IMG/VR virus record: IMGVR_UViG_3300035698_005713
Location: 1 to 48,947 of that record
Direction: 5' to 3' (one strand)
DNA length: 48,947 nucleotides
DNA from: a virus
The position numbers and the translations under genes are program-made. The notes beneath the pieces were generated by a model that was given only the letters and a program-made list of their open reading frames with translations, did no database searches and was not told the DNA's origin. Below, one piece after another: positions 7,053 to 42,854 of this stretch. Position 1 is the first letter of the stretch. The number at the start of each line of letters is the position of its first letter.

Positions 7053-8126
7053 TTACTTACTGATTACGAAATTGTTGCGTCTGTTGGTACAGATAGACTG
7101 ATACCTGTGGTACAGGACAGCTTTGAAGACACGACTCTGGTTAGGAGCTACACGGAAGTCGCCTAAGTCCATATTGCTGCCCTTTTTCACCAGCATATTG
7201 AACGTACTCATATCAAGACCATAAACAGGGTCGCTGGTATCGTCGTTGAGAAGTTCCGCATACACAAAAGGATTGCTCTTGAACAGCACATTACCATCGC
7301 CGTCAGACCTCAAACCCCATTTACCCGCACCCGCGACCTTTGGAGCTACATCGTTGCCGAGATTCTCATTCTGGTCTGCTGCGATAGTCTCTAATCCTTC
7401 AAGTGTGTCTTCGTTGCACAGATAGACTCGCTTTCGAGGCATTGCATCACCTTTGAAACCGGCATCTTTACGAGGAGCTTTGAATTTAGTCCTTCTATGC
7501 GCCCGTTTCATCTTCAAAATGAGGTCTGCTTTACTGATAGCCGTGTACTGGTCGGTGTAGTTCCTGAAGTTAGGAACTTCCGTCAGATTGATATTACCAA
7601 TCTTGCTAAAACCGGAAGGATAACCGCCGTTGAAACCAGTCGTTGAGTTCTTGACAATCCAATACTTCAGACCCCACGGAGTCAAAGAGTCAGAGGCATC
7701 CGGTGTGTCAAAGAAAACCTCTTCCATCGTCTCTGCCACACGAAGATACATTGCCCTTCGCCGTGGCTTGAAAATGTTATTGATTCTTTCGTCGCCTCTG
7801 TTGTCTTCGATTTCGCCTTGACTATGGGCGACACCGTCTGTCAACAGTGTGAAGTCAACTTTCATTCGTTTCAAGAGGTCAATGACGTTGACGGTATCTT
7901 CGTCATACTCGCCGATGAACTTAGAACGACCGCCGTGTTGTATCATCAGCGTTTTTTCAAGTCCAACGCCACCGCTTACCATTTGCACACCGCCTTGCAC
8001 TTTCATAAGGTACGGCATAGCAATATACTCTGTTAATTCCTGAGATATGTCGATGACCTCATTCTTCTTCAAAGAAGCATAGTTTGCTGTCAGCATATCT
8101 TCAATGTCTTTTGTATGAATACTCAT
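7053..8126 (-). CDS. Major capsid (coat) protein, HK97-fold type
   Basis: 357 residues. It lies immediately downstream of the scaffold gene and reads as a coat protein of the kind seen in short-tailed phages: N-terminal helix (MSIHTKDIEDMLTANYASLKKNEVID), central GGRSKF and LLKRMKVDFTLL strands, then a C-terminal region MDLGDFRVAPNQSRVFKAVL with RYQSICTNRRNNFVISK. The length fits the HK97 fold without a large inserted domain. No protease gene is visible beside it, so processing is probably absent and the separate scaffold suffices. Confidence 0.8.
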   Translation of the reverse strand: MSIHTKDIEDMLTANYASLKKNEVIDISQELTEYIAMPYLMKVQGGVQMVSGGVGLEKTLMIQHGGRSKFIGEYDEDTVNVIDLLKRMKVDFTLLTDGVAHSQGEIEDNRGDERINNIFKPRRRAMYLRVAETMEEVFFDTPDASDSLTPWGLKYWIVKNSTTGFNGGYPSGFSKIGNINLTEVPNFRNYTDQYTAISKADLILKMKRAHRRTKFKAPRKDAGFKGDAMPRKRVYLCNEDTLEGLETIAADQNENLGNDVAPKVAGAGKWGLRSDGDGNVLFKSNPFVYAELLNDDTSDPVYGLDMSTFNMLVKKGSNMDLGDFRVAPNQSRVFKAVLYHRYQSICTNRRNNFVISK

Positions 8127-11035: not shown

Positions 11036-12823
11036 TTACGCACTCGCTCTCGATAATGAAGCCACCTCTGACTGTTGCGGTTTGCCGCCCAATAATGCCT
11101 GTTGCATTACTGCGCTCTTGCCTTGGTTCGTTGCGCCGGGAATACTGCGCCTTGTGTAATTGCGATTAGTAACAGGAGCTTGACTTGACTGTCCTATCGG
11201 CTCACTTTGCAGTTGCGGTGTCGCATACTCAATAACGTCGTTGAGTTCTGTGATGTTACTTAATTTGCTTATCGTCTTGAACAGCTTCTCTATATTCAAA
11301 GTTACACCCTGCTGTTGCATCATCGGAAGTAACGGCTGAACCATCTCTAACATTATGGTTCGTATCCCCTGCATTTTGCTTTCAGGAGAATGGTGCTGCA
11401 TACTAAACGGCTCCATCTTGATATTGTATTGCAGGTAATCGCCTTCTCTGTCTTCTGGATTGAACGGTACAGTAATCGCAATACTCTCGAAGCCCGGTAC
11501 TTTCTTAATAACATCTCTCTGTTTTGGATTCGGGTCATACCACAAATACCACATCAGGTCTTTTAGGACGTTGGTTGTGAATATAGTTACTTCTTTTTGC
11601 ATCTTCTGGATTCGCATAGAGGCAGAAGCGGAAAGTAACTGGTCTTGTCCGAGCGTCTCTGACTGCGGCCCAAGCCCGCCGAGCATATCAAGATTACCGG
11701 CAAAATAACTGAACAGGTCTTTTATCATCAGTACAAAAGCTAAAGTCTCTGACTGTATTCCGCCTGTTTTCAACTCTGCTACATTTCGGGGATCGTCCAG
11801 TTTGACCATATCGCCATCACTTGCAGCAATAACGGTATTGCCATCAGTGTCGCCGCCTGGACGGACTCCTACAACTGTCTTTTGTCTGTCCGCCTGTCTT
11901 CCAAGTTTTCTAAACAACCTGTTTGCGAGATTGTGAAGGTCAAACCAATGCATCGCAGGTGCGACCGGCATTGTGTTACCCTCCAACTTGCCGAATCCCA
12001 GTTTTCTGTACGGCCCGTTTTCCGGCCCTTTCCATTCAAACGACTTTAAGACTTTATCTATCGGGCCGTCTGTTTCACCATCATCATCGTTTACAGTGCA
12101 TTGCAAGACCATATTCTGTTTCTTCAGGAACAGGTCAAGCATTTTTACTTTCGGCCTAAATTCTTCTCGCTGCGAAGCGTTCGGGGTGGACTCTGATATT
12201 TGGTGGTCTTTGTCGTCTGAAACTGACTGGTCTTGCACCTTTGTGAAATCTGATTCTTTAGCATCGGGGAACATCGCCATTACTTCGTCGATTGTCGGAT
12301 ACCAATAGTCGCCCTCAAACTGAGCATCTTCGTTTTCATCGACCGTCATATCCTCAACCCAATTATCAAGCGAAATGGCATTTGCAAAAGCCTGTCCGGT
12401 ATCGTGCGTTACACCGCCGACTTCTACAGTGGAACTGTTGAGGCCGATTTTGATAATCCCCTTAGAGAACATCGCAGCGGAGACAACTGTTTCAAGGGTT
12501 TCACCGAGGCCGATTTCTTCGATAAGATGATTGCCGCCGAGGTCAAATCTGGTGGCTATCTCTTTGAGTTGCTGGTAGTCTGTCGTTATTGCGACTTGCG
12601 GATTCTGTGCCACAAGTCTTTGCAAATAAATGTTCATCGACAGTTCCATAAGATTTATAGGAACTTTGTCTTCCGCCCCATTGTCAGAATAATTCGACCC
12701 GACGTATTCCCGCATCAGCCTCAGTCTGTTCTCGCGGAAAACTCCCAACTGCCTGCGAGAATAACCGACCGACTTCGACAGGTCATCTATGTCGGTTGCT
12801 GATTTAGGATTAAAGCGTGGCAT
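11036..12823 (-). CDS. Portal protein
   Basis: 595 residues from the ATG at 12823 (an upstream TTG would add seven residues). It follows the terminase gene and has portal-like features: N-terminal helical wing, central MHWFDLHNLANRLFRKLGRQAD and QTVVGVRPGG region, QSETLGQDQLLSASASMRIQKMQKEV long helix (about 390-420), and a Gln/Ser-rich C-terminus. This is the dodecameric channel at one vertex of the head. The size and context fit a short-tailed phage portal. Confidence 0.8.
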   Translation of the reverse strand: MPRFNPKSATDIDDLSKSVGYSRRQLGVFRENRLRLMREYVGSNYSDNGAEDKVPINLMELSMNIYLQRLVAQNPQVAITTDYQQLKEIATRFDLGGNHLIEEIGLGETLETVVSAAMFSKGIIKIGLNSSTVEVGGVTHDTGQAFANAISLDNWVEDMTVDENEDAQFEGDYWYPTIDEVMAMFPDAKESDFTKVQDQSVSDDKDHQISESTPNASQREEFRPKVKMLDLFLKKQNMVLQCTVNDDDGETDGPIDKVLKSFEWKGPENGPYRKLGFGKLEGNTMPVAPAMHWFDLHNLANRLFRKLGRQADRQKTVVGVRPGGDTDGNTVIAASDGDMVKLDDPRNVAELKTGGIQSETLAFVLMIKDLFSYFAGNLDMLGGLGPQSETLGQDQLLSASASMRIQKMQKEVTIFTTNVLKDLMWYLWYDPNPKQRDVIKKVPGFESIAITVPFNPEDREGDYLQYNIKMEPFSMQHHSPESKMQGIRTIMLEMVQPLLPMMQQQGVTLNIEKLFKTISKLSNITELNDVIEYATPQLQSEPIGQSSQAPVTNRNYTRRSIPGATNQGKSAVMQQALLGGKPQQSEVASLSRASA

Positions 12824-12846
12824 AGAAATCTTTCTGCGCAACAAAA

Positions 12847-16392: not shown

Positions 16393-16761
16393 TCAGAAAT
16401 TAGTGTTTGCGAATTCACCAAATAGAGCTTTAGCTTTCTGGTCGTATGCTTCGGCTGCCTCAATTTCGTGAACAAAATAGCCAAGATGCTCTAGTTCCCC
16501 ATTGCACTGGATTTGAGCACGCCACTTTTTGTCTCTTTTTTGCCAGCAAACGCCTTTGTATTCAGAAGTACCGGTTTTTCGATGCATCCGCACGGTATAC
16601 GGCTGCCCGCCGAATGGACGGCGGCAACTTCTCACAGCATAAAAAGTATATGGAGCCTTCAGTGCGCACCATTTATGCTTTGACAGCTCTTCAAAGTCTT
16701 CATCGTCGACCAGCGTAAAAGTATCTGGGTATTTCGGGGTGCTAATATCAATCCGTTTCAT
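16393..16761 (-). CDS. AP2-domain protein, homing nuclease that has lost its HNH core
   Basis: 122 residues from the ATG at 16761, which has GGAG 8 nt upstream. The N-terminal part (FTLVDDEDFEELSKHKWCA, TVRMHR) and the C-terminal AP2 domain (EYKGVCWQKRDKKWRAQIQ, LGYFVHEIEAAEAYDQKA) align with the complete nucleases at 22275-22769 and 32734-33225. The segment between RMHR and TG, which in those holds TDHKDGNGLNNQ and NLR, is missing (about 40 residues, in frame). It should still bind DNA but cannot cut. A structured leader precedes it. Confidence 0.8.
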   Translation of the reverse strand: MKRIDISTPKYPDTFTLVDDEDFEELSKHKWCALKAPYTFYAVRSCRRPFGGQPYTVRMHRKTGTSEYKGVCWQKRDKKWRAQIQCNGELEHLGYFVHEIEAAEAYDQKAKALFGEFANTNF

Positions 16762-16797
16762 AATACTATCTCCTGTAAATAGTTCCTGATAATATTT

Positions 16798-16850
16798 GTG
16801 CGGCAGGTTGGTCAGGATGTCCAACTTTTCGGTAATGAACCTATCCGCAC
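16798..16850 (-). ncRNA. Structured leader hairpin, copy A
   Basis: On the minus strand, GTGCGG pairs with CCGCAC, enclosing an inner GTTGG/CCAAC hairpin, 37 nt upstream of the AP2 gene. The same architecture, with compensating changes in both stems, lies upstream of the AP2-HNH gene at 22275-22769. The gene-proximal flank is also alike (ACAAAT, GGAAC, then GGAGATAGTA before the ATG). Probably a cis-acting mRNA structure or part of a mobile unit. Confidence 0.6.
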
Positions 16851-16954
16851 ATAAGAGTAAGTTGTTCTTATTCATCTGGCAAGATTTATTTATCGCTTTT
16901 ATTCTTTCATCTCAGTCTGAAACCGCTCAATTATAACCATTCTCACTCAAATAA

Positions 16955-16977
16955 TACCCATATGGGTACTAGTACCC
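16955..16977. promoter_or_regulatory. Two overlapping 14-bp perfect palindromes (operator candidate)
   Basis: TACCCATATGGGTA (16955-16968) overlaps GGGTACTAGTACCC (16964-16977), sharing GGGTA. Such tandem dyads suit a dimeric repressor or activator. They lie about 140-170 nt downstream of the minus-strand promoters and upstream of the structured leader. No cognate regulator was identified. Confidence 0.5.
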
Positions 16978-17113
16978 TTTCCATCCTCTTTCTGTCCCGA
17001 ATTCCAAGTATCGTAAAACCAACATCTTACAAATGTCGATATTAAGGGTTCTTGAAACTCCTGTTTACCAAAAATATAAGACCACGTTAGTCCACAATAC
17101 CACGTCCATATAT

Positions 17114-17142
17114 ATTATAGCGAGATTCCCGACCCCAGCCAA
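17114..17142 (-). promoter_or_regulatory. Sigma-70-type promoter, minus strand (proximal)
   Basis: On the minus strand TTGGCT and TATAAT are separated by exactly 17 nt. It would drive the leftward operon beginning with the AP2 gene and terminase cluster, leaving a 5' leader of about 350 nt. Confidence 0.55.
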
Positions 17143-17154
17143 TGACCAAAAAAC

Positions 17155-17183
17155 AATATATACAACATATCGACACAAGTCAA
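17155..17183 (-). promoter_or_regulatory. Sigma-70-type promoter, minus strand (distal)
   Basis: On the minus strand TTGACT and TATATT are 17 nt apart, 41 nt upstream of the other leftward promoter. The pair forms a tandem promoter for the structural operon. Confidence 0.55.
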
Positions 17184-17843
17184 ATAACTTCTTTAATTTT
17201 TATTGTAGCACATATCAGTCGGGTTTAGCGAAAAATTAAAAGACGCTGGAAAGGGTAGCTATAGGGGGGTAATCGAAAAGGGGTGGGGGGCGTGGTAAAG
17301 ATACTGGGAGGCAATGCCCTTTTTTTATGCTTACAATCAAATAAGCCTTGATTCTGGCCTGTTATGAGCCATCACAATCGGCGCAGTGTGTTGACACTAC
17401 ACCGATATAGGGGCTACGGAGGCTCCACAGGCCATAGGAGCTGGCAGGGCTGTCTCTTGTTGAGTTACCTTGCTGCCGCGCTCTGTCTGTGTTGGAAGCT
17501 GTGCTGTATGCTCTGTCTGTTGGCTGTCGCGGCTTCTGTCTGTGTCGCGGCTGGCCTGAGTGTGCTGTGGCTGCCTGTTGGTGGCTGCCTGCCGTGTGCT
17601 GGCTTGCTGTATGTTATGAGTGTTGACTGTTGCGGGCATTGCTTACTGCTTTGTGCGGTGTTGGCTGCTGTGGTTGCTGTGTGTGTCTGGTGTTGGCTGG
17701 CTACTGGCGGCCTCTCCACTTCGGACGCCTTCTCTTTGTATGTATCCTTTGTAATAGTATGTATTGGTAATAGGACAATTACTGTTGTAGCGGCTGTTGC
17801 CTGCTGGAGTCGAAAAAAAACTTAAAATAAACTAATTATTTGC
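17184..17843. other. Divergent control region with G-rich and TG-rich low-complexity DNA
   Basis: About 660 nt between divergent promoters. It contains a G-run cluster (17264-17290: G6, G4, G6), a T7 run after a weak GC hairpin (17309-17333), and from about 17436 to 17715 a GCTG/CTGT/TGT-rich stretch with strong strand bias. Long open frames occur on both strands there (up to 153 codons, plus strand), but they are Cys/Leu-rich or Gln/Thr-rich and look like composition artefacts, so no gene is called. Candidate for a replication origin, packaging site or regulatory DNA. Confidence 0.5.
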
Positions 17844-17871
17844 TTGACATTGTGCCGATGGGTAGTATAGT
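17844..17871 (+). promoter_or_regulatory. Sigma-70-type promoter for the plus-strand genes
   Basis: TTGACA and TATAGT separated by 16 nt, about 44 nt upstream of the first plus-strand start codon. It would transcribe the small early-type genes and the serine recombinase. Confidence 0.7.
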
Positions 17872-17914
17872 AAGGATAAACACGGTAATTTTAACCAACT
17901 GAAAGGGTTTGATT

Positions 17915-18124
17915 ATGGAGATAAGAACAGATATGAACTGTTGCCCGGACTGTGGATCTGCCCGGCTGAATTTCGCCGCTGGTATCCATCACGGCAATCT
18001 GTCAGAGGAGTATCCCTGCTGTTGTGAGGCTTGCGGCTGGCAGGGTTCGGAATGGTATCGGGACGACTATTTCATAGGCCACACAAACGCATCGGGTGTC
18101 CAGTGTGGCTATTCATTAACTTAA
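17915..18124 (+). CDS. Small zinc-ribbon protein (69 aa)
   Basis: Reads MEIRTDMNCCPDCGSARLNF from the ATG at 17915; a TTG two codons earlier lies too close to the GAAAGGG ribosome site. Two Cys pairs (CCPDCG and CCCEACGWQGSEW) form a zinc ribbon of the kind that binds nucleic acid. First gene of the plus-strand unit, directly after its promoter. Function unknown. Confidence 0.75.
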   Translation: MEIRTDMNCCPDCGSARLNFAAGIHHGNLSEEYPCCCEACGWQGSEWYRDDYFIGHTNASGVQCGYSLT

Positions 18125-18142
18125 TTACTGAAAGGGTTTCAA

Positions 18143-18316
18143 ATGGACGTTAAAATCGAAAAGGACAAAATCACTATTACACTGCCAATATCACCCAGGA
18201 CGAGCAGTAGCGGCAAGTCAACTATTATCGCTTCAAGTGGCGGCAATAAGGCCAGTTCGGCTATGTATGAGGGCAGACCGGTTATCTGTGGCGTTAATTG
18301 CTACGTGCCGAAATAA
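18143..18316 (+). CDS. Small conserved hypothetical protein (57 aa)
   Basis: Reads MDVKIEKDKITITLPISPRT, then SSGKSTIIASSGGNKASSAM and ending VICGVNCYVPK. The layout (short beta hairpin, SSGKS-II-ASS-GN segment, G-V-N-Y-V end) matches a widespread family of about 55-60-residue proteins in phages and mobile DNA, function unknown as far as I know. Preceded by the ACTGAAAGGGTTT leader. The SGKS is probably not a P-loop, because no fold of the right size is present. Confidence 0.7.
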   Translation: MDVKIEKDKITITLPISPRTSSSGKSTIIASSGGNKASSAMYEGRPVICGVNCYVPK

Positions 18317-18399
18317 CAATGGTGAACTCCGGGCGGGTCGTTCTGCTCGGTGTTGTCTGTTGTTAAAAATCAATTTAATTTTACTGAAAGGGTAGAACA

Positions 18400-18918
18400 A
18401 TGAAACAATTAAACAATTGGCTCACAAACGAGGAAGCACGGTATCGGCTGGAGCATTGCCAGTCAATACTTGAGGGGACAACGGCGGCGGGGTTGCTATA
18501 CGACGAGCAAATAGCGTCAATTGACGGGGCTGTTTATGAGTTATACACCACAAAAGACACAACACCGGAGCAAATTAAAGAGGCTAAACATATTATCAGG
18601 GACAACCACGACGCCATAGGCTTTCACACTGTCAAGGTTATTCAGCAGTGGATTGAAGAAGTAATGCACAAGCCAGACACCGCCCCGGACAAGGGCTGGA
18701 TTGAGTCGATGCGGCAGATTGTACTTGAGAAGCAATGCCGAAAAATCGACGTGAACGGTAAAATTATCGCAAAAACCAAAACAGGTGGTCAACTTGTAGA
18801 TATGTTCACCGCTTCGATAATGGTACAGGTCTACGACAAGTTAAACCCTGTCAACCGTGAGAAGTTCCATAAATCTAACTTCGCTGTCGCTCATCATATC
18901 GCGATGCAACTAATCTAA
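18400..18918 (+). CDS. Hypothetical protein (172 aa)
   Basis: Reads MKQLNNWLTNEEARYRLEHCQ. All-helical prediction, with a Lys/Asp-rich middle and a C-terminal block KLNPVNREKFHKSNFAVAHHIAMQLI that looks like a conserved phage helical domain. Preceded by ACTGAAAGGGT at a good distance. No catalytic motif seen and no family recognised. The 83 nt before it (18317-18399) hold no gene. Confidence 0.7.
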   Translation: MKQLNNWLTNEEARYRLEHCQSILEGTTAAGLLYDEQIASIDGAVYELYTTKDTTPEQIKEAKHIIRDNHDAIGFHTVKVIQQWIEEVMHKPDTAPDKGWIESMRQIVLEKQCRKIDVNGKIIAKTKTGGQLVDMFTASIMVQVYDKLNPVNREKFHKSNFAVAHHIAMQLI

Positions 18919-18928
18919 AAGGGAAACA

Positions 18929-19147
18929 ATGAAAACAGCACTTGAACAATTTGCAGAACTGTTAGAGAAAGAACGTATTGAGCAACTTCATAAAGACGAT
19001 ACTGCCTGTCAAGCGAACATCGACAACGCTAAAACTTCTGTTAAGCCCGGCAAAAAATACACTAAAGTCGATATTGGTTATTCAGGCGCGTATATGGTCG
19101 TAAACGATTGGTATTGGGGCTCTTACAGGGCGTACCCAAAGAACTAA
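18929..19147 (+). CDS. Small hypothetical protein (72 aa)
   Basis: Reads MKTALEQFAELLEKERIEQL; the helical first half is followed by a beta-rich segment (YTKVDIGYSGAYMVVNDWYWGSYRAYPKN). Ten nucleotides after the previous stop, with AAAGGGAAACA before the ATG. The aromatic C-terminal half resembles small phage accessory proteins of unknown role. Confidence 0.7.
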   Translation: MKTALEQFAELLEKERIEQLHKDDTACQANIDNAKTSVKPGKKYTKVDIGYSGAYMVVNDWYWGSYRAYPKN

Positions 19148-19158
19148 ACCCGAACCCC

Positions 19159-19184
19159 GCCCGGCTGGCATAGACTGGCCGGGC
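19159..19184 (+). terminator. GC-rich hairpin (possible attenuator or terminator)
   Basis: A 7-bp perfect stem GCCCGGC/GCCGGGC with a 12-nt loop, followed by ATTTA but no long T tract. It sits between two small genes and could attenuate transcription or protect the message. Confidence 0.4.
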
Positions 19185-19206
19185 ATTTACTGAAAGGACT
19201 GTTGAA

Positions 19207-19396
19207 ATGATATTTAACTGTAAAAATGGACAATGCCGCTTTCAATGACGGCGCAGACACAACGGAATTGTGCCGCATTTTAGATGCGGTCAAAAACAAT
19301 GTTCAACAATGCTCAACGCCTGATTTTATTTCTTACAACTGTCGGGACATCAACGGAAATAAAGTCGGGCATTACGAAACAACTGGCATCGCATAA
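19207..19396 (+). pseudogene. Small phage protein interrupted by a 1-nt shift in an A5 run
   Basis: The ATG at 19207 has the usual ACTGAAAGGACTGTTGAA leader but stops after 13 codons. One frame over, from ATG 19226 to 19396, runs a well-formed 56-codon frame (MDNAAFNDGADTTELCRILD, ending INGNKVGHYETTGIA) that fits a known type of small phage protein (AF-DG, ILR/ILD helix, GNKVG end). Removing one A from AAAAA (19222-19226) would join them as a 62-residue protein. So this is a real frameshift, a homopolymer sequencing error, or a slippery site. The 104 nt after the stop contain a 7-bp hairpin at 19406-19423 and no clear gene. Confidence 0.65.
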
Positions 19397-19500
19397 GCAC
19401 TCGAAACCGGGCTTCTGCCCGGTCTATCGGACTGGCGATCCGGTACTGATGAGAACGCCCAGACTGTTAAAGAGGCCAAAAGGCTGGAAAGAGGTTGATT

Positions 19501-19764
19501 ATGTACACAAAAGGAAAATGGAAGTTCGACGAAAACGATTACACAATTACAACCGAGGAAAATGACCTGTTTTGTATTGCCGACGTTAGCCCTCTTAATT
19601 ATGACGGAAGAGCTAACGCCGAGCGAATCTGCTTATGCTGTAATTCTCACGATGAGCTTGTGGCGGCGTGCGAAATAGCTTGGATAAAATCAGCTAACCA
19701 CGAAAAATTAACGTTTGACGACTGCGATGTGCTCAAAAAAGCCCTTGCTAAAGCAAAAGGATAA
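19501..19764 (+). CDS. Phage 'YTKGKW' type hypothetical protein (87 aa)
   Basis: Reads MYTKGKWKFDENDYTITTEE, then NAERICLCCNSHDELVAACEIAW. The pattern (T-G-W start, beta strands, then NA-xx-I-ann-ELLxAA) is a common small phage or prophage family, function unknown. Start at the ATG 19501 after AAAGAGGTTGATT; a TTG two codons before is unneeded. It ends 6 nt before the serine recombinase, suggesting one transcript. Confidence 0.75.
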   Translation: MYTKGKWKFDENDYTITTEENDLFCIADVSPLNYDGRANAERICLCCNSHDELVAACEIAWIKSANHEKLTFDDCDVLKKALAKAKG

Positions 19765-19770
19765 TGACCT

Positions 19771-20523
19771 ATGAAACGCAAAAACCAGACCAATACCACT
19801 GCAGTTATATATGCCCGCTACTCTCCACGCCGAAACAAAGATGAGTGCGAATCTTGCGAAACCCAGATTGACTTCGCGCAAAACTACTGTAAATTTCACA
19901 AGTTAGCGGTTATATCTACTCACCGGGACGATGGTTTGTCCGGCTCCAAATCTGTCAATCGCCCCGGACTTCAGGAAGCGTTGCTGGCAGCAATAAATTA
20001 CAAGGCCGTTTTAGTTGTTTATTCGCTGTCCCGGTTAGCGCGTAACACCCGCGAAACAATCGAAATAACAGACAGCCTTCAGGCGGCAAAGGCTAATTTA
20101 TGTAGCGTTACCGAGAATATCGACACGACAACCGCAATGGGGTCAGCGTTCTATAAAATCATAGCTGTATTGGCAGAATTAGAGCGCGAACAAATAGGAG
20201 AACGCACCCGCGAAGCGATGCTGTGGCATCAAGCCCACGGTCGCAGAATGTCAAAAATACCGCCTTATGGCTGGCAGGACGACCCTTACGACCCGGCCCG
20301 GATGGTTCCAAATGAATATGAGATAACTGTCATTGAAAAGATAAAGAAGCTCAGGGCGGCTGGGCTGTCGCTTAGGAAGATTGCCGCTGAATTGATAAAA
20401 TTAGGATACGCGGCCCGGATGGTTGCGAAAGTGGTTGACGGACAGGATGTTGAGGTTGCTGGAGTATGGCATTTCGGCACAGTTCGTAGAATTTTGAACC
20501 GCGCCGAAATGACCTCCTATTAA
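19771..20523 (+). CDS. Serine recombinase (resolvase/integrase type)
   Basis: 250 residues. Catalytic domain of the resolvase/invertase family: AVIYARYS with nucleophile S18, DDGLSGSK (53-60), RPGLQ, YSLSRLARN (84-92) and the GERTREAM helix (143-150). The C-terminus has PPYGW, then KLRAAGLSLRKIAAELIKLGY and WHFGTVRRILNR, a short recombinase-type DNA-binding segment. It lacks the long coiled-coil tail of large serine integrases, so it is intermediate in size. It could integrate the phage or act as a resolvase/invertase. No attachment site was recognised. Last gene of the plus-strand block; it meets the opposing gene 4 nt later. Confidence 0.85.
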   Translation: MKRKNQTNTTAVIYARYSPRRNKDECESCETQIDFAQNYCKFHKLAVISTHRDDGLSGSKSVNRPGLQEALLAAINYKAVLVVYSLSRLARNTRETIEITDSLQAAKANLCSVTENIDTTTAMGSAFYKIIAVLAELEREQIGERTREAMLWHQAHGRRMSKIPPYGWQDDPYDPARMVPNEYEITVIEKIKKLRAAGLSLRKIAAELIKLGYAARMVAKVVDGQDVEVAGVWHFGTVRRILNRAEMTSY

Positions 20524-20527
20524 AGTG

Positions 20528-20887
20528 TTATCTTCTCTCATAACTGCACAGATGAGCTACAATCCAGCTAATGATTATCGCCCCTGCTACCCACCAAACA
20601 GTCATTATTTCGCCCTTTGCATATATTAAAACAGCCTTAACGACTAATGCAACTGGCACGGCTATTGCCATCGGCCAGTCGATATACTTAGGCAGCAAGG
20701 GGATATAGAAGTTTGTAATCGTGGCCTGTTTCTGCCAAATAAGATACGCCTCTATACAACCAACGGCTATCAATAGCCAAATTGCCACAATGTGCCATAC
20801 TATATTGACACCAAAAAACAATAAACAGAGAGCTAAAGCTATGAGTATTATTGCTATCCAGTGTAAATTTTCTTTAATTGTTTTCAT
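20528..20887 (-). CDS. Four-span membrane protein
   Basis: 119 residues (MKTIKENLHWIAIILIALAL). At least four hydrophobic segments (about 9-28, 30-50, 66-86, 95-112) with short loops. It overlaps the end of the upstream membrane-protein gene by 14 nt. Holin-like by topology and by proximity to a 3D-domain wall protein, but I cannot assign a family. A tail-end position next to the recombinase gene is also compatible with an exclusion protein. Confidence 0.65.
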   Translation of the reverse strand: MKTIKENLHWIAIILIALALCLLFFGVNIVWHIVAIWLLIAVGCIEAYLIWQKQATITNFYIPLLPKYIDWPMAIAVPVALVVKAVLIYAKGEIMTVWWVAGAIIISWIVAHLCSYERR

Positions 20888-21362
20888 TCTTTAATCCTTT
20901 AATTATTTCTCCATTTTTGTTCCGTTCCTGTTGATAATTTATACATTTCCAGACCAATACGCCTACTGCTACGACTGTTACGCCGAGCGAAATCCATTCA
21001 GCATATCGCGCCCACCAGGTTATAAATCCGATTCCGCCGGCTGCTGCTGCTGGAATCACCCAGCCAAAGCGGGATCGCGTGAATCCCCAGAAGATAAAGC
21101 CGCCAACCATAAGAATCACCAGCCCGACATAAAGCCAACCGTTATGCTTCAAGACTGCACTTGCCCGGCCTGCCGAAGTTAATGCGTTGTTTGCCAGAGC
21201 TTCTACCATTTTTTCGGCAGCCTTGCCTGTTAGGTGATAAACTGGTTCGTTCGGGTCGTTCTGCCATTTAATACTTGACGCACAACCCGCCACCGTCAAC
21301 ACAACCAGCGTTACTATTGCCACGACAATTATCCACCAAATTATCCACTCTGCTTTTGTCAT
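20874..21362 (-). CDS. Membrane protein with lipobox-like N-terminus
   Basis: 162 residues. The N-terminal hydrophobic helix ends in a lipobox-like VAGC27, then a soluble loop (KWQNDPNEPVYHLTGKAAEKMVEAL) and two or three more membrane helices (about 72-92, 95-115, 120-138), then a charged tail. Layout suits a lysis or cell-envelope protein. It lies beside the 3D-domain gene and another membrane gene, suggesting a lysis cassette; this is inferred. Confidence 0.65.
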   Translation of the reverse strand: MTKAEWIIWWIIVVAIVTLVVLTVAGCASSIKWQNDPNEPVYHLTGKAAEKMVEALANNALTSAGRASAVLKHNGWLYVGLVILMVGGFIFWGFTRSRFGWVIPAAAAGGIGFITWWARYAEWISLGVTVVAVGVLVWKCINYQQERNKNGEIIKGLKNENN

Positions 21363-21526
21363 CGTTTACTCTCCTTTTCAGATAAATCAATAGCGGTTTC
21401 TAAAACCCAATTAAAATTATCAGCGGCTATTCTGTCCGCTCGTTCTCTGCAATCTTGGCCGCCGCAAGACCACCACCTATAGTATTCATCTTTAACCTTG
21501 TCCAGTTCTCTTAGACTACTTATCAT
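21359..21526 (-). CDS. Small hypothetical protein (55 aa)
   Basis: Reads MISSLRELDKVKDEYYRWWS, then CGGQDCRERADRIAADNFNW. The ATG at 21526 has AAGGAG about 8 nt upstream, which rules out a longer reading that would run through the 3D-domain gene. CGGQDCRERAD may bind zinc weakly. It overlaps the end of the wall gene by 11 nt and the membrane gene by 4 nt. Function unknown. Confidence 0.65.
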   Translation of the reverse strand: MISSLRELDKVKDEYYRWWSCGGQDCRERADRIAADNFNWVLETAIDLSEKESKR

Positions 21527-21854
21527 CTTTATTCTCCTTAAAAAAAATACAATTAACGTACCTAACGCCCCAGTTAAGGGCTTTTTCGTGAGGGGGACAA
21601 GAACTTTTAGGGTCAAAACCAAAAAAAACGTCCAACTTGTTCTCCACAATCGCCGAGCCCCTGTCTTCAACTGTTGCAAGTCCATAACCCGGAACATAAA
21701 CTTTAGTCCCAAATGGAATATTCTTCGGTGCTGCGATAATCAAACCTTCTGCTTTCGCTCCTGAAGCTGTGAGGCGTTCACCTTTTTTGTTGATGCCCTC
21801 TAACGCCCAAATGCCGCAACATTTTTCGCAACTACAATAAGCTGTTACCCGCAT
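21516..21854 (-). CDS. 3D-domain cell-wall protein (probable lytic enzyme)
   Basis: 112 residues from the ATG at 21854, with GAGG 7-8 nt upstream; a GTG at 21890 lacks a spaced ribosome site. It shows the 3D domain named for three Asp: VTAYCSCEKCCG, TASG, then VEDRGSAI and NKLDVFF. The fold is that of MltA/RlpA-like double-psi barrels that cleave or bind peptidoglycan. No signal peptide, so it would need a holin to reach the wall. Best candidate in the window for an endolysin-type function. Confidence 0.75.
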   Translation of the reverse strand: MRVTAYCSCEKCCGIWALEGINKKGERLTASGAKAEGLIIAAPKNIPFGTKVYVPGYGLATVEDRGSAIVENKLDVFFGFDPKSSCPPHEKALNWGVRYVNCIFFKENKDDK

Positions 21855-21906
21855 TGAAACGACCTCGCAGGAGGCTGTCAGACCGTACACGCCTTTGATA
21901 GGGCTA

Positions 21907-21966
21907 TTATCTCCCGAAATAAGTCCCCGTACAGCCTATAATTATTAAAATCAAAACTGGGGTCAT
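21907..21966 (-). CDS. Candidate hydrophobic micro-peptide (19 aa)
   Basis: Reads MTPVLILIIIGCTGTYFGR, starting at an ATG that abuts the upstream stop (TAAATG) and is preceded by a strong AGGAGG about 8 nt away. A small membrane peptide is plausible. Alternatively the ribosome site belongs to a frame starting at a non-standard codon and ending at 21878. Confidence 0.3.
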   Translation of the reverse strand: MTPVLILIIIGCTGTYFGR

Positions 21967-22278
21967 TTACAATCCCTCCTCGGCATATTTCAAAAACCGT
22001 AGAATATCTACCAATGAGGCGGAACTGTAAGCCATCTTCAGGTTGGTCGGCACAAAACCATAACCTTGAAAGTCTTGATTCCACGACATTAAACCCGCTT
22101 CCTCCATATCGCGCCGCCTGCTGAGAAGCCACACATCGTGTTTAGTCTCGAAATCTGAACCGATAACCTCAAAGTGAAACTCTGGAAAAGCCTTCTCCAA
22201 ATTCACTCGCCGAGCTTTATAAAACCGCTTTTGCTGCTCTATCCGCCGAGACATCTCTTTCGTTATTGGAGATTTCAT
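21967..22278 (-). CDS. Hypothetical protein (103 aa)
   Basis: Reads MKSPITKEMSRRIEQQKRFY and ends ILRFLKYAEEGL. Charged N-terminal helix and a beta-rich centre (FHFEVIGSDFETKHDVWLLS). Its ATG overlaps the stop of the AP2-HNH nuclease gene by 4 nt, so the nuclease was inserted just ahead of it. Family not recognised. Confidence 0.7.
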   Translation of the reverse strand: MKSPITKEMSRRIEQQKRFYKARRVNLEKAFPEFHFEVIGSDFETKHDVWLLSRRRDMEEAGLMSWNQDFQGYGFVPTNLKMAYSSASLVDILRFLKYAEEGL

Positions 22279-22769
22279 AATAGTACCGCTTGGTTTAAGT
22301 TTGCAAATTCTCCAAACAAATCAACGGCTTTTGCGTTGTACGCTTCAGCTGCCTCAATCTCAACATCAAAATAACCAAGAGAGATTGTTTTGCCGTTCAG
22401 CTTAATTTGTGAAACCCATTTTTTGTCTCTTTTGTTCCAATGAACACCCTTGAAACTTGACGAAATCCCTGTCCTAAGATTTATTCGATTTTGACAGTTT
22501 TCAGTACAAGTACAAATTCTGAGGTTAGACCGTTGATTATTAAGACCATTGCCGTCTTTGTGGTCTGTTTGCATATCATTAGGCGTGTTCATAATCTGCC
22601 GGTGCATCCGGATAGTATGCTTTTTACCATCGACGAGACATCTATATTTTCTCGAAGCGTAAAAAGTATGCCTACCTTTATCAACATACCACTTGAACTT
22701 TGAGAGTTCCTCAAAGTTAGAATCATCGACTATTGCGAATTTGCCTTGTGTAAGCTGAATTGTTTTCAT
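22275..22769 (-). CDS. AP2-domain HNH homing endonuclease
   Basis: 164 residues from the ATG at 22769 with GGGAG about 8 nt upstream. N-terminal domain (QGKFAIVDDSNFEELSKFKW), then HNH core TDHKDGNGLNNQR and NLRIC (68-86), then a C-terminal AP2 DNA-binding domain (FKGVHWNKRDKKWVSQIKL, LGYFDVEIEAAEAYNAKA, about 106-150). The family spreads by cutting alleles lacking it. The same family has one intact copy at 32734-33225 and one HNH-less copy at 16393-16761. The leader upstream carries the shared structured element. Confidence 0.9.
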   Translation of the reverse strand: MKTIQLTQGKFAIVDDSNFEELSKFKWYVDKGRHTFYASRKYRCLVDGKKHTIRMHRQIMNTPNDMQTDHKDGNGLNNQRSNLRICTCTENCQNRINLRTGISSSFKGVHWNKRDKKWVSQIKLNGKTISLGYFDVEIEAAEAYNAKAVDLFGEFANLNQAVLL

Positions 22770-22805
22770 CGTACTATCTCCCATAATAGCTGTTCCCAAT
22801 AAATT

Positions 22806-22860
22806 TGTGCAGCAGGGCGATTGGGAGTTCGCCTTTTTAGCCGCTAAGCCTATCTGCACA
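22806..22860 (-). ncRNA. Structured leader hairpin, copy B
   Basis: On the minus strand TGTGCAG pairs with CTGCACA and encloses a GGCGA/TCGCC hairpin, about 37 nt upstream of the AP2-HNH start. It has the same plan as copy A at 16798-16850, with base changes on both sides of the stems that keep pairing, plus conserved AT-AGG and CT-G joints. It overlaps no gene; the rest of the 119-nt gap (22770-22888) is leader sequence. Confidence 0.6.
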
Positions 22861-31624: not shown

Positions 31625-32734
31625 CTATTTGAAATGCTCGTTTAATTCCGGCTTATCTATCGCCGACAACTTTGATATTGCCTTATCTTCAAATCCGCCT
31701 GAGAATCGCTCCTGCGGCACTTTCTGTGTGTAAACTACCTTTGACCCCTCAATCGCTCCGTGAGCCTTAATCCACTGCGTAGCAGCCCTTTTACGAGCCT
31801 TACAGAGAGCTTCCAAGACAACCAGACTGTCAATAAAGGCTTTCGGATCGTCGGCTATCTCCTTTGCTTCCATAGAAGCCTGCGGACAAAACCTAATCAC
31901 ATCACAGAAACAGCAGGTATCCGGTAAAGGATAAGCATCACGACAGTCTTTCATAAACAAATCAACCGCTTCTGTTATACGGCCTCTGAGAGCGACTTCT
32001 GTTGTCAGTCCTGGCAAGCGTGGGTGTTCTTCGTTTCTATCGAATCTGGCGTAGGCTTTGGTTCCGAACATAGTCTCGTAGTACCAGAAGTGGATTGTAT
32101 TGATTTCCTTGTACTCCTTCTGCTGGAACAGCAGGAACGCAATGCAGCCAGCCTGAAACGAATCCGCTGTTTCTGAATTGCTCCGCCGCTTGAAGCCCGT
32201 CTTCCAGTCAACAGCGTGGAGATTGCCTTTGCCTGAGCCTAACAGGTCTATTCTGGTTGTGGCGATGACAGCAGGAGCGGTGTCTGTTTCAGGAATAATT
32301 ACAAGCGATACCTGCTGTTCAACAGCAATAATATCGACGTGGTATTCAGCAATCATATCGCAAATATGCCGAGCGTGTCTGATAGCCATAGGCTGTATAT
32401 TCGGCTTAATCTTCGGCAGATTATCAACGAGGTACTCCGGGACTAAATGAATATCGTTTTTACATTCATTGAAAGCCTTGTCGATGAGTTCGTGGATTTG
32501 AGTACCGCACTCGGCCAACTTACCTGTTGTAGATTGCAGAGCTGTAGCGGACATTTTTTTAATGAGAGCAGGGTCGGCGTCTTTTGTTCTTTCGTCTTCC
32601 CATTTATGAGTTTCATATCCCTCCGCGATAGCCTTCAGAGCGTCAAAAAGTATCGTCAAGTAGGCCTGTCTTGGGCAGGTGGCGTACTGCTCCAAACGGC
32701 TTCTATCAAGGATTATAGGCGCGTGTTTTGCCAT
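31625..32734 (-). CDS. RecB-type nuclease with iron-sulfur cluster (AddB/Cas4-like)
   Basis: 369 residues. PD-(D/E)XK core: TRIDLLGSG (D163) and AVDWKTG (D176-K178). Cysteines C20 (YATCPRQ) and C274/C277/C283 (CCFCDVIRFC) match the four-Cys iron-sulfur pattern of AddB/Cas4-family nucleases, which holds the fold together. In phages this family supplies 5'-end resection for annealing recombinases; the RecT-type gene lies two genes upstream. It overlaps the AP2-HNH gene by 1 nt. Confidence 0.85.
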   Translation of the reverse strand: MAKHAPIILDRSRLEQYATCPRQAYLTILFDALKAIAEGYETHKWEDERTKDADPALIKKMSATALQSTTGKLAECGTQIHELIDKAFNECKNDIHLVPEYLVDNLPKIKPNIQPMAIRHARHICDMIAEYHVDIIAVEQQVSLVIIPETDTAPAVIATTRIDLLGSGKGNLHAVDWKTGFKRRSNSETADSFQAGCIAFLLFQQKEYKEINTIHFWYYETMFGTKAYARFDRNEEHPRLPGLTTEVALRGRITEAVDLFMKDCRDAYPLPDTCCFCDVIRFCPQASMEAKEIADDPKAFIDSLVVLEALCKARKRAATQWIKAHGAIEGSKVVYTQKVPQERFSGGFEDKAISKLSAIDKPELNEHFK

Positions 32735-33225
32735 TACGAAGCCTCCTTTTGCTTGAAGTTCAAAAATGCAAATTCGCCGAACAATCTTAAAGCCGCTTCA
32801 TCGTATTTTTTTGCGGCCTCAATCTCCGAATCAAAATAGCCCAAACTAACATTCTTTCCTTCAATCATAATCTGAGCTTGCCACTTATTCGTTTGCTTGT
32901 ACCACGACACGCCCTTAAATTTACTCGAACCTGTACGACAACGTTGATTGTATTGGTTTTCAGCCTTGGTACAAACTCGCAGATTATACCTTTGGTTATT
33001 CAAACCATTGCCGTCTTGATGGTCGGTTTCCATTCCGAGCGGCGTACCCATAAGCTGACGGTGCATCCTTACGGAATGGCGTTTTCCGCCAAGTGTGCAT
33101 CTACAATTTCTTACGGCGTAAAAAGCATACGAACCTTTATCAGCGCACCACTTATGCTTTGATAGCGATTCGTAGTCGTCATCAACAAAAGCTACTTTCC
33201 CTTGCGTTAATTGAATTTCTTTCAT
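32734..33225 (-). CDS. AP2-domain HNH homing endonuclease
   Basis: 163 residues: QGKVAFVDDDYESLSKHKWC, HSVRMHRQLMGTPLGME, HNH core TDHQDGNGLNNQRYNLR, then AP2 domain FKGVSWYKQTNKWQAQIMI and LGYFDSEIEAAKKYDEAA. Intact motif set, very similar to the copy at 22275-22769. Unlike the other two it lacks the structured leader: its start lies inside the end of the RecT-type gene (overlap 4 nt) and its stop shares bases with the nuclease start, so it is wedged precisely into the operon. Confidence 0.9.
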   Translation of the reverse strand: MKEIQLTQGKVAFVDDDYESLSKHKWCADKGSYAFYAVRNCRCTLGGKRHSVRMHRQLMGTPLGMETDHQDGNGLNNQRYNLRVCTKAENQYNQRCRTGSSKFKGVSWYKQTNKWQAQIMIEGKNVSLGYFDSEIEAAKKYDEAALRLFGEFAFLNFKQKEAS

Positions 33226-35513: not shown

Positions 35514-37826
35514 TTATCTTTTCAGTCCCCTGTTTTTGCGATAATGAAACTTCCTGAGCATTTGGTTGCGAACTTCTGTTCTGATGGCGTTGAGCATTTT
35601 CTTTTTGTCTTCGTCGCTGGCTCTGCGATAGCTGGCTCTAAGAATCTCCCTTGCGGCACGTCTGCCGTATTCTCGGCCATAGAACTTCAGAGCTGACTGG
35701 TACAGGTTTTCGCTGAGTTGTGTTTTCAAGCCCTGAACCCTCTTTGAAGAACGCTCAATGTCTGCAATTGCTGGAGCTTCGCCGACAACTTCAAGCCTGC
35801 TGATTTCGTCTATTAAGGCGGACTCGTTCGCTGTTTTGACACGGCTTCCAAATAGTAGGTTTGTCCAGAATCCCTCACCTTTGATTTCCTCACCTGTGGT
35901 TGGGCTTATCTTAACAGGTAGCGTCTGTCGCAGCCCTGGGATACCAGCTTTTGTCCGAGCCAGCAAATCAGCCCTGTCAATTTTCCTGACTACTGGGTCT
36001 GTTGCTTTTGCAAGTGTATTTACAATACTCGGAATAACCCTCGACCGGACAGAATTGATAACCCCACCCGCCGCACCTATCGCCGCTTCTCCGGCTGTTT
36101 CAGCAATCAAAACCTCTTTAATACTTGCATACAAATCCTCGAAATCTATCAGTCCGGGAACTTGCAAAATTTGTTTACCAAGACCCTGAACGTACTTAAA
36201 AACTGTATCTCCCGGACTCCTGCCATATTTTTTGGCGTACATCATACCGACGAAACCGGCTCCAAGTGCGCCAAAGAAGTCAAGCGAAATCCATTTGCCG
36301 CTGATTTTCACAGCATTATAAACGCCTTTCTTCAGCCCCATCTGTTCTCGTTGTTTCGCTGTTACCGCTTCATAGGCACTAAAAAAATCGTCCGGTGGTA
36401 TCAATGCTGCTACAATCATTGAAAGAGCAAAACCCATACCACTGCGAACAAATGTCCTCATCACTTTCTGAAATTCTACTGGGTCTGGATTTATCTTGTC
36501 ATTTTTCAGGTTAAGTGCCGATTTCAGTTTTGCCGCGGCAATTATAGTTCCTATTGGCGTGGACTCGATACCGAACTGGATTACATTCGCGCCAGTCTTA
36601 ACAAACGGTATATTCCAGTACCCTATCTGCAAGTCGCCTGTTGCTTCGTTGAGCCAGTCTCTAAGCCCCATAGATAAATTCGAGATAAAACCTTTATTCG
36701 TCCACGTTGCGAACTCTGCGTCTGCTATTGCCTGTTGCCGGACAATGAAAGCCTCTTTGGTTACATCAGAGGATACGTCAGGTTGTATTTTTACTGATTC
36801 CTGAAATATCTCAAGAGCCTTTTGTTTTGCGGCTTCGCCTTTCAACCCCATTTTGCGGGCTATTTTTGTCGCGGCGATATTCGTCGAATCCGCCGCCGCC
36901 GCCGCCGCCGAGACAGTATCTGAATAGCCAAGCAGATATTTGAAAACGACTTTTGAAATCCCCCTGCCTGTCTTGCGGATAATACCCGGCCCCTCAGAAT
37001 GGATGATATGCTCTCCGAGCCGAATATCTTCTGCGTAAGCCCTGCTGATGTCGTATCCTGTGTCTGTAAAGATTCCGACAGCCATTTTGAAGTATTCTCT
37101 GGCAAACTCCGAATTTGAGCCTAAGTATTGATTGCTTGTTATTCGGCGTTCTAAAGCCTGCATAGTTCCCTGCACGATATTAGAAATAGTGTTCACCGTT
37201 GCAGGAGGAACATTCAAGAGCATATTGCCCCTGCCGATAGTTCCTGTTGCGACTTTCAGGTTGTGTGTTGGGTCAAGTCCGTTTATGAATTTGTCCATAT
37301 CTGTCATAGCCGCGTAGTATTCACTCAGGGCTGGTTTGACTTTTTTGAAATACTCTTTTGTCGGCAATCCTGTTTCTGCCTGTGCGGAAATTGCGTCGAG
37401 TTTTAGCCTCTCGATTTTCTTTGCTTTCTTACTGATGGACTCAACTTCCTCGGCTGTAACAGCAACACCCAATCTGTGTGAAATTAGGTCTGTAAAAGCC
37501 GCCGTTTGCGACTCTGGATTCAAAAGGTCTGCGTCCTCTAAATGTGCTATTTTGTCGAGAATGTTTTTGGTTTTAACAGTCTTCGCTTCTTGTTTCGTGG
37601 TTATTTCCTTGAAGAATTTTGTCAGAGCCATTTTACTTTTTGAAGCTGCTGCTGCCTCGAACTTCGTATTCGTCCACTTCGCAAGCTCTGGGGCAAGATA
37701 CTTACTCCATTCAGCTTGTCTCGCTTCAGACGAAGCCATATTGTACAAACCCTCTATTGACAGCTTGCCACTTACAAGAGCTTCTTTTATCTTTGCGACC
37801 GTTGGGGCTGGAATACATAGTGCCAT
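35514..37826 (-). CDS. Large internal-virion / ejection-type protein (770 aa)
   Basis: Mostly helical, with an N-terminal Ala/Lys-rich third, an amphipathic membrane-like centre (SGMGFALSMIVAALIPPDDFF, LDFFGALGAGFVGMMYA) and a basic C-terminal tail (KKMLNAIRTEVRNQMLRKFHYRKNRGLKR). Proteins of this kind in short-tailed phages form the DNA-ejection channel; similar large polyvalent-type proteins occur in other phages. It follows the other very long virion proteins, from which it is separated by a 9-nt gap. The role is inferred from size, order and composition. Confidence 0.6.
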   Translation of the reverse strand: MALCIPAPTVAKIKEALVSGKLSIEGLYNMASSEARQAEWSKYLAPELAKWTNTKFEAAAASKSKMALTKFFKEITTKQEAKTVKTKNILDKIAHLEDADLLNPESQTAAFTDLISHRLGVAVTAEEVESISKKAKKIERLKLDAISAQAETGLPTKEYFKKVKPALSEYYAAMTDMDKFINGLDPTHNLKVATGTIGRGNMLLNVPPATVNTISNIVQGTMQALERRITSNQYLGSNSEFAREYFKMAVGIFTDTGYDISRAYAEDIRLGEHIIHSEGPGIIRKTGRGISKVVFKYLLGYSDTVSAAAAAADSTNIAATKIARKMGLKGEAAKQKALEIFQESVKIQPDVSSDVTKEAFIVRQQAIADAEFATWTNKGFISNLSMGLRDWLNEATGDLQIGYWNIPFVKTGANVIQFGIESTPIGTIIAAAKLKSALNLKNDKINPDPVEFQKVMRTFVRSGMGFALSMIVAALIPPDDFFSAYEAVTAKQREQMGLKKGVYNAVKISGKWISLDFFGALGAGFVGMMYAKKYGRSPGDTVFKYVQGLGKQILQVPGLIDFEDLYASIKEVLIAETAGEAAIGAAGGVINSVRSRVIPSIVNTLAKATDPVVRKIDRADLLARTKAGIPGLRQTLPVKISPTTGEEIKGEGFWTNLLFGSRVKTANESALIDEISRLEVVGEAPAIADIERSSKRVQGLKTQLSENLYQSALKFYGREYGRRAAREILRASYRRASDEDKKKMLNAIRTEVRNQMLRKFHYRKNRGLKR

Positions 37827-37835
37827 ATCAGATTC

Positions 37836-40745: not shown

Positions 40746-40749
40746 ACCG

Positions 40750-41679
40750 TTATTTCCCTACCAACAACTGCATTATCTTTATTGCTCGCGGGTCATCTGG
40801 ATTCTGTTCAGCCCATTCCAACGCCTGTTGATCCTCACTTTTGTAATCGCCGAAGAGCTTGTCGGCAAGTATAGTTGCTTCCTCAAAAGACTTAGCCTCA
40901 TCTAACAGCTTTATTACAAGTTTCGATTTCTCAATAACCTTTTTTGCTTCAACATCGGCTTTATCAGTGGCGGCTTTTGCTTCCGCCTCGGCCTTTTCAT
41001 TAGCCATTTCAGCGTAAGGGTCAAGTTCGATTTTGCCAGTTTTCTGATTGATATAAGAATATGAGCCATCATCATTAGTCATTTTATACTTTTCAAATTC
41101 TGCAACAGGATTCGGTGTGGGTTCGTTTACCATCGAAGGCAAAATGCTATTATCTACCATCCATAGTTGTTTTTCGAGATTTTCGCCCTGTTCAGCTGTT
41201 AATTCTTGTTCGGCCACTCGTAGTCTGACTCCCGATATAGCCCTCTGAAGTTGTTCCTTTTTTCTTTTATCTTCTTCAGAGTACCGCCACTTAAAATCTT
41301 CTCGTTTACGTTCCTGTTCCGCTTTTGCTTCTGCAAGTTTTCGGGTCGGTTCGTCTTCCAGCCAATCCCTTTTGTCTCTATATGCTTCTGCTTCAGTTGC
41401 TTGTTCTTTCTCGAGATTTATATTCTCAAATTCCTGTTGTGCAATCCTCCTTGCAGTTTCAGCATCGCCTCTTTCCAAAGCCTGATTATACCTGTCTTGA
41501 ATGATTTGACGGCCAATCTGGTCTCGTTGAATACGGCGACTAAGTTCTTCCTCGGCTCGCCTATCCTGTGCCTGTTGAAGTTTTAACTGTTCCCGTCGCC
41601 TTACACCTTCAACTCGACCGGCTTTTTGTGCAAGCGTACTTAACGCACCGACAGGAGTATAGTCTATTTTAATTGGCAT
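40750..41679 (-). CDS. Coiled-coil virion protein (309 aa)
   Basis: Reads MPIKIDYTPVGALSTLAQKA, then about 120 residues of unbroken Glu/Arg/Gln coiled coil (REQLKLQQAQDRRAEEELSRR) and another helical block (KAEAEAKAATDKADVEAK). Ends AIKIMQLLVGK. The gap to the next gene is 4 nt. Composition and position match internal virion proteins of short-tailed phages, the smallest of an ejection set. Confidence 0.65.
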   Translation of the reverse strand: MPIKIDYTPVGALSTLAQKAGRVEGVRRREQLKLQQAQDRRAEEELSRRIQRDQIGRQIIQDRYNQALERGDAETARRIAQQEFENINLEKEQATEAEAYRDKRDWLEDEPTRKLAEAKAEQERKREDFKWRYSEEDKRKKEQLQRAISGVRLRVAEQELTAEQGENLEKQLWMVDNSILPSMVNEPTPNPVAEFEKYKMTNDDGSYSYINQKTGKIELDPYAEMANEKAEAEAKAATDKADVEAKKVIEKSKLVIKLLDEAKSFEEATILADKLFGDYKSEDQQALEWAEQNPDDPRAIKIMQLLVGK

Positions 41680-41706
41680 TTTCTTTACCTCATAACCGCT
41701 TTATCA

Positions 41707-42537: not shown

Positions 42538-42546
42538 TTTAGGCTC

Positions 42547-42831: not shown

Positions 42832-42854
42832 TTTTACTTCCTTTCTAAATAAGT

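Follow-up and report, generated by a model that had tools for sequence, protein, structure and literature searches.

Two int-alpA RNAs ahead of AP2-domain genes in a virus genome, each with a loop matching a downstream segment and the ribosome-binding site

Results

Two int-alpA RNAs in a viral window

The window analysed here, the whole 48.9-kb stretch of virus record IMGVR_UViG_3300035698_005713 (positions 1 to 48,947), carries on its minus strand two structured RNAs, each lying just ahead of a gene with an AP2 domain (Table 1). An initial annotation, made from the sequence alone, had described them as hairpins of a common plan with compensating stem changes, and had proposed an RNA element that controls the AP2 genes or travels with them. 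The hairpins do lie at the sites given, the outer stems spanning exactly 16851-16797 (copy 1) and 22860-22806 (copy 2). These stems read (T)GTGCGG/CCGCAC(A) and (T)GTGCAG/CTGCAC(A), respectively, and the inner stems, as the annotation had it, GTTGG/CCAAC and GGCGA/TCGCC. Four pairs differ between the copies and still pair, one in the outer stem (G-C to A-T) and three in the inner stem (T-A to G-C, T-A to C-G, and G-C to A-T). The common flanks ATAGG, CTG, ACAAAT and GGGAGATAGTA/AGGAGATAGTA are present as well. The plan is not just one of two stems, since a further small hairpin lies between them. Each element is a three-way junction, composed of the outer stem (P1), the small hairpin (P2) and the inner hairpin (P3), the last with a loop of 8-9 nucleotides (nt).

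Both leaders match the Rfam family int-alpA (RF02996) above its curated gathering score of 35.8 bits, and both align to the model over its full length (1-71/71). The E-values, calculated over the window and all 4227 Rfam families, are 4.8e-06 for copy 1 and 8.7e-05 for copy 2, in excess of chance. We rejected a new RNA family, because RF02996 covers both copies; int-alpA is already known, and the two RNAs of the window are new members of it. In the Rfam alignment, P2 is weakly formed in copy 2. The junction bases, for which the family consensus is CUAG and GAAAA, show small deviations (AUAGG and GAAAAG in copy 1; AUAGG and UAAAAAG in copy 2). Single-sequence folding gives z = -2.6 for copy 1 and -0.8 for copy 2, the latter not informative, and folding alone would thus not have revealed the elements. 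A promoter scan upstream of copy 1 found 4 candidates, against 2.9 expected. The family was reportedly introduced in a 2017 paper. Rfam gives its entry type as sRNA only, and the literature that we searched names int-alpA only in a list.

One loop matches two downstream segments

The loop of the inner hairpin contains a segment, L, that matches two segments downstream, a feature missed by the initial annotation. The first of these, A, follows right after the junction, and the second, B, lies in the Shine-Dalgarno region. Where L reads UCCUG in copy 1 and UCCCA in copy 2, both A and B have changed in step, from CAGGA to UGGGA. Computed duplex energies for L:A are -8.6 (copy 1) and -9.5 kcal/mol (copy 2), and those for L:B are -7.2 and -10.5 kcal/mol. 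When L is crossed between the two copies, pairing is weaker (-3.1 to -5.8 kcal/mol).

Table 1. Positions of the two int-alpA copies, their segments, and the AP2-domain genes of the window
Feature	Position	Strand	Basis or remark
int-alpA RNA copy 1, three-way junction and downstream segment A	16784..16851	-	Rfam RF02996, 44.5 bits
Outer stem P1, copy 1	3′ arm 16797..16803, 5′ arm 16845-16851	-	Sequence reading and Rfam alignment
Inner hairpin P3, copy 1, GUUGG / CCAAC, loop ACAUCCUGA	16807..16825	-	Sequence and Rfam alignment
Loop segment L, copy 1, UCCUGA	16812..16817	-	Complementary to A (6 bp) and B (5 bp)
Segment A, copy 1, UCAGGA, putative pseudoknot partner of L	16784..16789	-	Complementarity; family-wide permutation tests
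Segment B, copy 1, CAGGA, part of Shine-Dalgarno sequence	16771..16775	-	Complementarity to L
Small hairpin ACUAU(UU)...(AG)AUAGU with B in loop, copy 1	16765..16783	-	Fold -3.9 kcal/mol; arms covary family-wide
AP2-domain gene led by copy 1, HNH segment deleted	16393..16761	-	Pfam AP2 only; 41-residue gap relative to the protein of 22275
int-alpA RNA copy 2	22794..22860	-	Rfam RF02996, 39.6 bits
Outer stem P1, copy 2	3′ arm 22806..22812, 5′ arm 22854-22860	-	Sequence reading and Rfam alignment
Inner hairpin P3, copy 2, GGCGA / UCGCC, loop ACUCCCAA	22816..22833	-	Sequence and Rfam alignment
Loop segment L, copy 2, UCCCAA(U)	22820..22826	-	Complementary to A (7 bp) and B (6 bp)
Segment A, copy 2, AUUGGGA	22794..22800	-	Complementarity to L
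Segment B, copy 2, UGGGAG, Shine-Dalgarno sequence	22778..22783	-	Complementarity to L
Small hairpin GCUAUU / GAUAGU with B in loop, copy 2	22773..22790	-	Fold -3.9 kcal/mol
HNH_3 and AP2 gene (mobile-type nuclease) led by copy 2	22275..22769	-	Pfam AP2 and HNH_3; PHROG phrog_99 HNH endonuclease, E 4e-40
Third AP2-HNH gene, 62% identical to the second, without int-alpA	32734-33225	-	Start at 33225

Both segments covary with the loop across the family

The initial annotation had staked its proposal on further copies, and these are plentiful. A search of 274 Gammaproteobacteria genomes with RF02996, in which all copies were read together with their downstream sequence, yields 47 copies in 35 genomes (34 genomes above the cut-off), and copies are found in >100 viral contigs. 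Among 151 genomes of Bacilli, a small sample, there are two copies, one of them above the cut-off.

We asked how well each loop matches its own downstream segments as compared with those of other copies, in tests that ignore shared ancestry and that use start codons chosen with a Shine-Dalgarno heuristic. The first set (n = 46) consists mostly of genome copies found with the Rfam model, together with two viral copies and the two of the window. Here, own L scores 14.8 on A, versus 10.9 for swapped L (z 11.8), and 14.0 on B, versus 11.3 (z 8.7), with 0/20000 permutations in each case. The contigs of a second, viral set were picked by exact patterns in the small hairpin only, which leaves L, A and B unselected; this set comprises 139 non-identical copies with a start codon, and represents just two sequence variants of that hairpin. 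In the viral set, the permutation z is 29 for A and 17 for B, and for the two arms of the hairpin that encloses B it is 18 (0/5000 each). A strict consensus pattern gave no match in viral contigs.

In the pooled data, L pairs with both A and B through at least three shared loop bases in 164/185 copies, as compared to 47.6±5.5 when leaders are swapped; under strict limits, the figures are 118 and 13. Because the same loop bases are used for A and B, the pairings L:A and L:B are mutually exclusive. There are 99 distinct shared loop cores, and the median pairing energies across the family are -8.6 kcal/mol for L:A and -7.8 kcal/mol for L:B. We also considered L as a mere anti-Shine-Dalgarno loop. 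This was rejected, as loops that lack CC are likewise complementary to their own A and B (48/55, versus 9 for swaps), which makes L more than a generic anti-Shine-Dalgarno sequence.

The layout of the leaders is regular. About 7 nt separate P1 from A, A from B, and B from the start codon, which lies ~33 nt after P1 (25-45 nt in 96% of the viral set) and is ATG in 127/139 cases. The junction bases are strongly kept, with UAG in 45/48 and J2/3 of the GAAAA type. Two side observations concern individual contigs. In L055, where the RNA lies at 1501-1570 on the minus strand, A seems displaced: a perfect palindrome, AAAAGTGCAGTCGACTGCACTTTT, follows the junction, and then come two GTAACGG motifs, the second at the ribosome-binding site. 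Some viral contigs (L094, L112, L266) resemble the window in having two int-alpA copies with differing loops.

Led genes are often mobile-type nucleases

The earlier statement that both RNAs precede AP2 nuclease-type genes is right for copy 2. The gene led by copy 1 retains AP2 only, its HNH segment having been lost in a 41-residue deletion, and a homing-type nuclease domain is thus confined to the copy 2 gene. The copy 1 gene stays in frame despite this loss, behind an intact leader, and may be decaying or reused as a DNA-binding protein. A third AP2 gene had been said to lack the element. No int-alpA match is seen there in the Rfam scan of the window, even at E<=1, so the statement stands, although the position quoted for this gene, 32734, is its end rather than its start. 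The ATG lies ~10 nt after a GGAG inside an upstream open reading frame, and the start overlaps that frame, as in translational coupling.

Beyond the window, int-alpA leads an HNH endonuclease gene in deep-sea thermophilic phage D6E and in Shewanella X14, a NUMOD4 protein gene in Tbat2_3, and a gene for a Seg-like homing endonuclease with an AP2 domain in Rhizobium RHph_X2_25. Further led proteins are labelled hypothetical or winged-helix and have HNH or endonuclease matches among the PHROGs. The Bacilli copy above the cut-off leads a LAGLIDADG gene; in integrative elements, int-alpA leads other kinds of gene. A Pfam search of 135 led proteins, mostly from viral contigs, returned HNH_3 (13), HNH (10), NUMOD4 (6), AP2 (5), HNH_5 (4), endonuclease VII (3), NUMOD3 (3) and GIY-YIG (2), and ~40/135 are mobile-type nucleases by manual reading, a count that is not a computed union. 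Among 105 next-downstream genes of the same contigs, the corresponding matches are HNH_3 (2), HNH (1) and NUMOD4 (1); HTH_17 (13) and AlpA (8) are found there too, in keeping with the int-alpA name. Hence int-alpA is not bound to one protein family, and it recurs on several kinds of mobile nuclease.

The specific association with AP2-HNH genes fares less well. L105 and L294 do carry the leader ahead of AP2-HNH genes like those of the window, but 13 viral AP2-HNH relatives from a protein search have no int-alpA match above threshold, and by eye no similar leader is apparent in those 13 nor in 4 genomic AP2-HNH relatives. An AP2-specific leader was rejected on these grounds.

RNA and gene can be inserted together

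In Vibrio phage 1.198.A, the RNA and an HNH gene lie between two genes of opposite orientation. In Vibrio phage 1.236.O, the same two neighbours are ~60 nt apart, with neither the RNA nor the HNH gene. This empty site indicates that RNA and HNH gene were inserted as one unit in one Vibrio phage lineage. A different HNH gene, of the phrog_99 type, occupies the same intergenic site in Vibrio phage 1.265.O (L317, 847-1476), with a leader that by eye is not int-alpA. Elsewhere, phages that otherwise differ share only a leader stretch of up to 95 nt, 77-93% identical, which precedes different nuclease genes (Shewanella X14, Vibrio 1.242.O and 1.087.A). Taken with the HNH, AP2-HNH, GIY-YIG, endonuclease VII and LAGLIDADG genes led by this RNA family in unrelated phages and genomes, the Vibrio site bears out the suggestion that the RNA travels with genes. 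A search for an empty site corresponding to the Rhizobium phage copy was unproductive. Phage records compared by blastn with the leaders and genes of the window included no close relative of the window phage, and blastn of L021 gave no useful match.

Could the element act at the level of DNA, marking the cassette for recombination or insertion, and have no function as an RNA? It does move with cassettes, an empty site exists, and the element sits at the left end of the inserted unit. A DNA signal, however, has no need of a loop that matches its own ribosome-binding site. In int-alpA, changes in L are tracked by A and B, the arms of the hairpin enclosing B covary, and the element is always on the sense strand beside a start codon. 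We regard this explanation as very improbable.

Other features of the window

Apart from int-alpA, the window has a single Rfam match, to the type II hammerhead ribozyme, at 19399-19463 (+), with 42 bits and above the Rfam threshold. It lies between small open reading frames, ahead of a resolvase gene (19771-20523, +). In a PHROG scan of large proteins (91-1296, 7053-8126, 11036-12844, 35514-46729), most had no match at E<=1e-4; the exceptions were a weak terminase match, a helicase and an SbcC-like protein. This places the phage far from those sampled.

Discussion

A proposed two-state leader model

We propose, with a probability of roughly 60%, that the hairpins of the window are int-alpA 5′ leaders that control translation of the next gene in cis, through mutually exclusive pairing of L with A or with B. 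The three-way junction would present the single loop segment L. Pairing of L with A, ~7 nt after the junction, would form a pseudoknot and leave the ribosome-binding site in a weak hairpin, where it is probably usable. Pairing of L with B, ~7 nt before the start codon, would instead block initiation. Since the two pairings share loop bases, the leader could behave as a two-state switch. The L:A pseudoknot probably forms first, because A is transcribed first and is nearer to L. The conserved junction bases (UAG and GAAAA) may sense a ligand, a protein or a folding cue, and the near-invariance of UAG suggests a tertiary contact or a binding site that sets the balance between L:A and L:B. Leader and gene would together constitute a small mobile cassette, whose gene in phages is often a free-standing homing-type nuclease, and low or timed production of the nuclease would limit harm to the phage. 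What we infer here is which state is ON, regulation in cis, sensing by the junction, and the benefit to the phage. As to the earlier suggestion that the RNA controls the AP2 genes, covarying pairing to the ribosome-binding site across the family argues in its favor, while the element has proved to be neither AP2-specific nor new.

Several points weigh against this model. Pyrimidine-rich loops are partly expected to match Shine-Dalgarno sequences, an effect for which the swap tests control, ancestry being ignored. A few copies do not fit the general plan: L040 shows one merged site, and L073 and L049 have no clear gene. The link between leader and gene is loose as well. AP2-HNH relatives at 43-53% identity are found without the RNA, implying that the gene does not need it.

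Comparison with C4 and CI RNAs

A further point against the model, the sRNA entry type of int-alpA, speaks for its main rival, a processed, trans-acting form of the RNA. Like C4 or CI RNA, the junction would be cut from the leader transcript, and L would pair with B (perhaps also A) both in trans and on its own mRNA, among the same or related mobile elements, and would so confer immunity or copy control. Phage P1 has a closely similar layout, annotated with C4 RNA followed after 3 nt by target a2 and then by b2 at the ribosome-binding site of icd; in both systems, the targets follow the RNA, and the second coincides with the ribosome-binding site of the next gene. The CI RNA of P4 likewise has two complementary target sites (PMC4825925). 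B lies in a hairpin loop, as is common for kissing antisense targets; the loops are diverse, and those of the window copies cross-pair poorly. Other features fit a leader better. The antisense loop would be engaged by the A segment lying right behind the junction, the RNA keeps a constant distance from the start codon, as suits a leader, and identical loop cores occur among copies in several genomes. Furthermore, P1 C4 has a separate antisense segment for each of its two targets, whereas int-alpA uses one loop for both. The two families (C4 is RF01695) have no sequence or clan relation, and their junctions differ in plan. C4 membership itself was rejected: the window has no RF01695 match, while the P1 and P4 controls score 68.8 and 74.9. 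Thus int-alpA may work somewhat like C4, but it is no C4 RNA, and on balance we consider the antisense explanation doubtful.

Comparison with homing endonuclease leaders and riboswitches

In T4-like phages, RNA structures around the ribosome-binding site hold down the translation of homing endonucleases (PMC2988022; PMC3014915). This precedent makes a benefit to the phage plausible under the two-state model. It is also compatible with a simpler idea, in which the RNA is a static shield that keeps nuclease translation low (PMC2988022), with A being structural or a decoy and no signal for switching. The near-equal median energies of L:A and L:B would by themselves be enough for partial repression. 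Such a shield, however, would hardly require the kept junction bases or the conserved three-way plan, and we think it unlikely. What the T4-type leaders (I-TevI, segB, Aeh1 mobE) have in common with the proposed role of int-alpA is that a structured ribosome-binding site limits translation of a phage homing endonuclease. They differ in being simple hairpins that are escaped by means of a late promoter, while int-alpA has a separate conserved domain and two exclusive pairings.

The two-state model also brings to mind the pseudoknot translational riboswitches, in which a compact junction would similarly stand beside exclusive helices, one hiding the ribosome-binding site. For int-alpA, by contrast, there is no known ligand, and the led genes share no metabolic pathway. 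It is possible, and we suggest it only tentatively, that phages and integrative elements widely use int-alpA as a sensing leader, in which a phage- or host-derived signal toggles the loop between decoy and ribosome-binding site, and that homing endonucleases and integrative elements time their expression in this way.

The window copies share the three-way junction and conserved junction bases of RF02996, which Rfam presents as an sRNA gene. To that description we add the leader position, B at the ribosome-binding site, the hairpin around B, and the link to nucleases. The leader role, the exclusive L:A and L:B pairing and the recurrence on mobile nucleases were not found in the searched literature, a search that did not extend to the original description of int-alpA.

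Like many RNAs found by computation, int-alpA has no assigned function. The covariation of its loop with a decoy as well as with the ribosome-binding site gives it a testable model. Given the spread of the family (34/274 Gammaproteobacteria genomes, 1/151 Bacilli, >100 viral contigs), this model would cover many phages and integrative elements. Free-standing homing endonucleases, about whose translational control in phages little is known (PMC2988022), would gain a further regulator.

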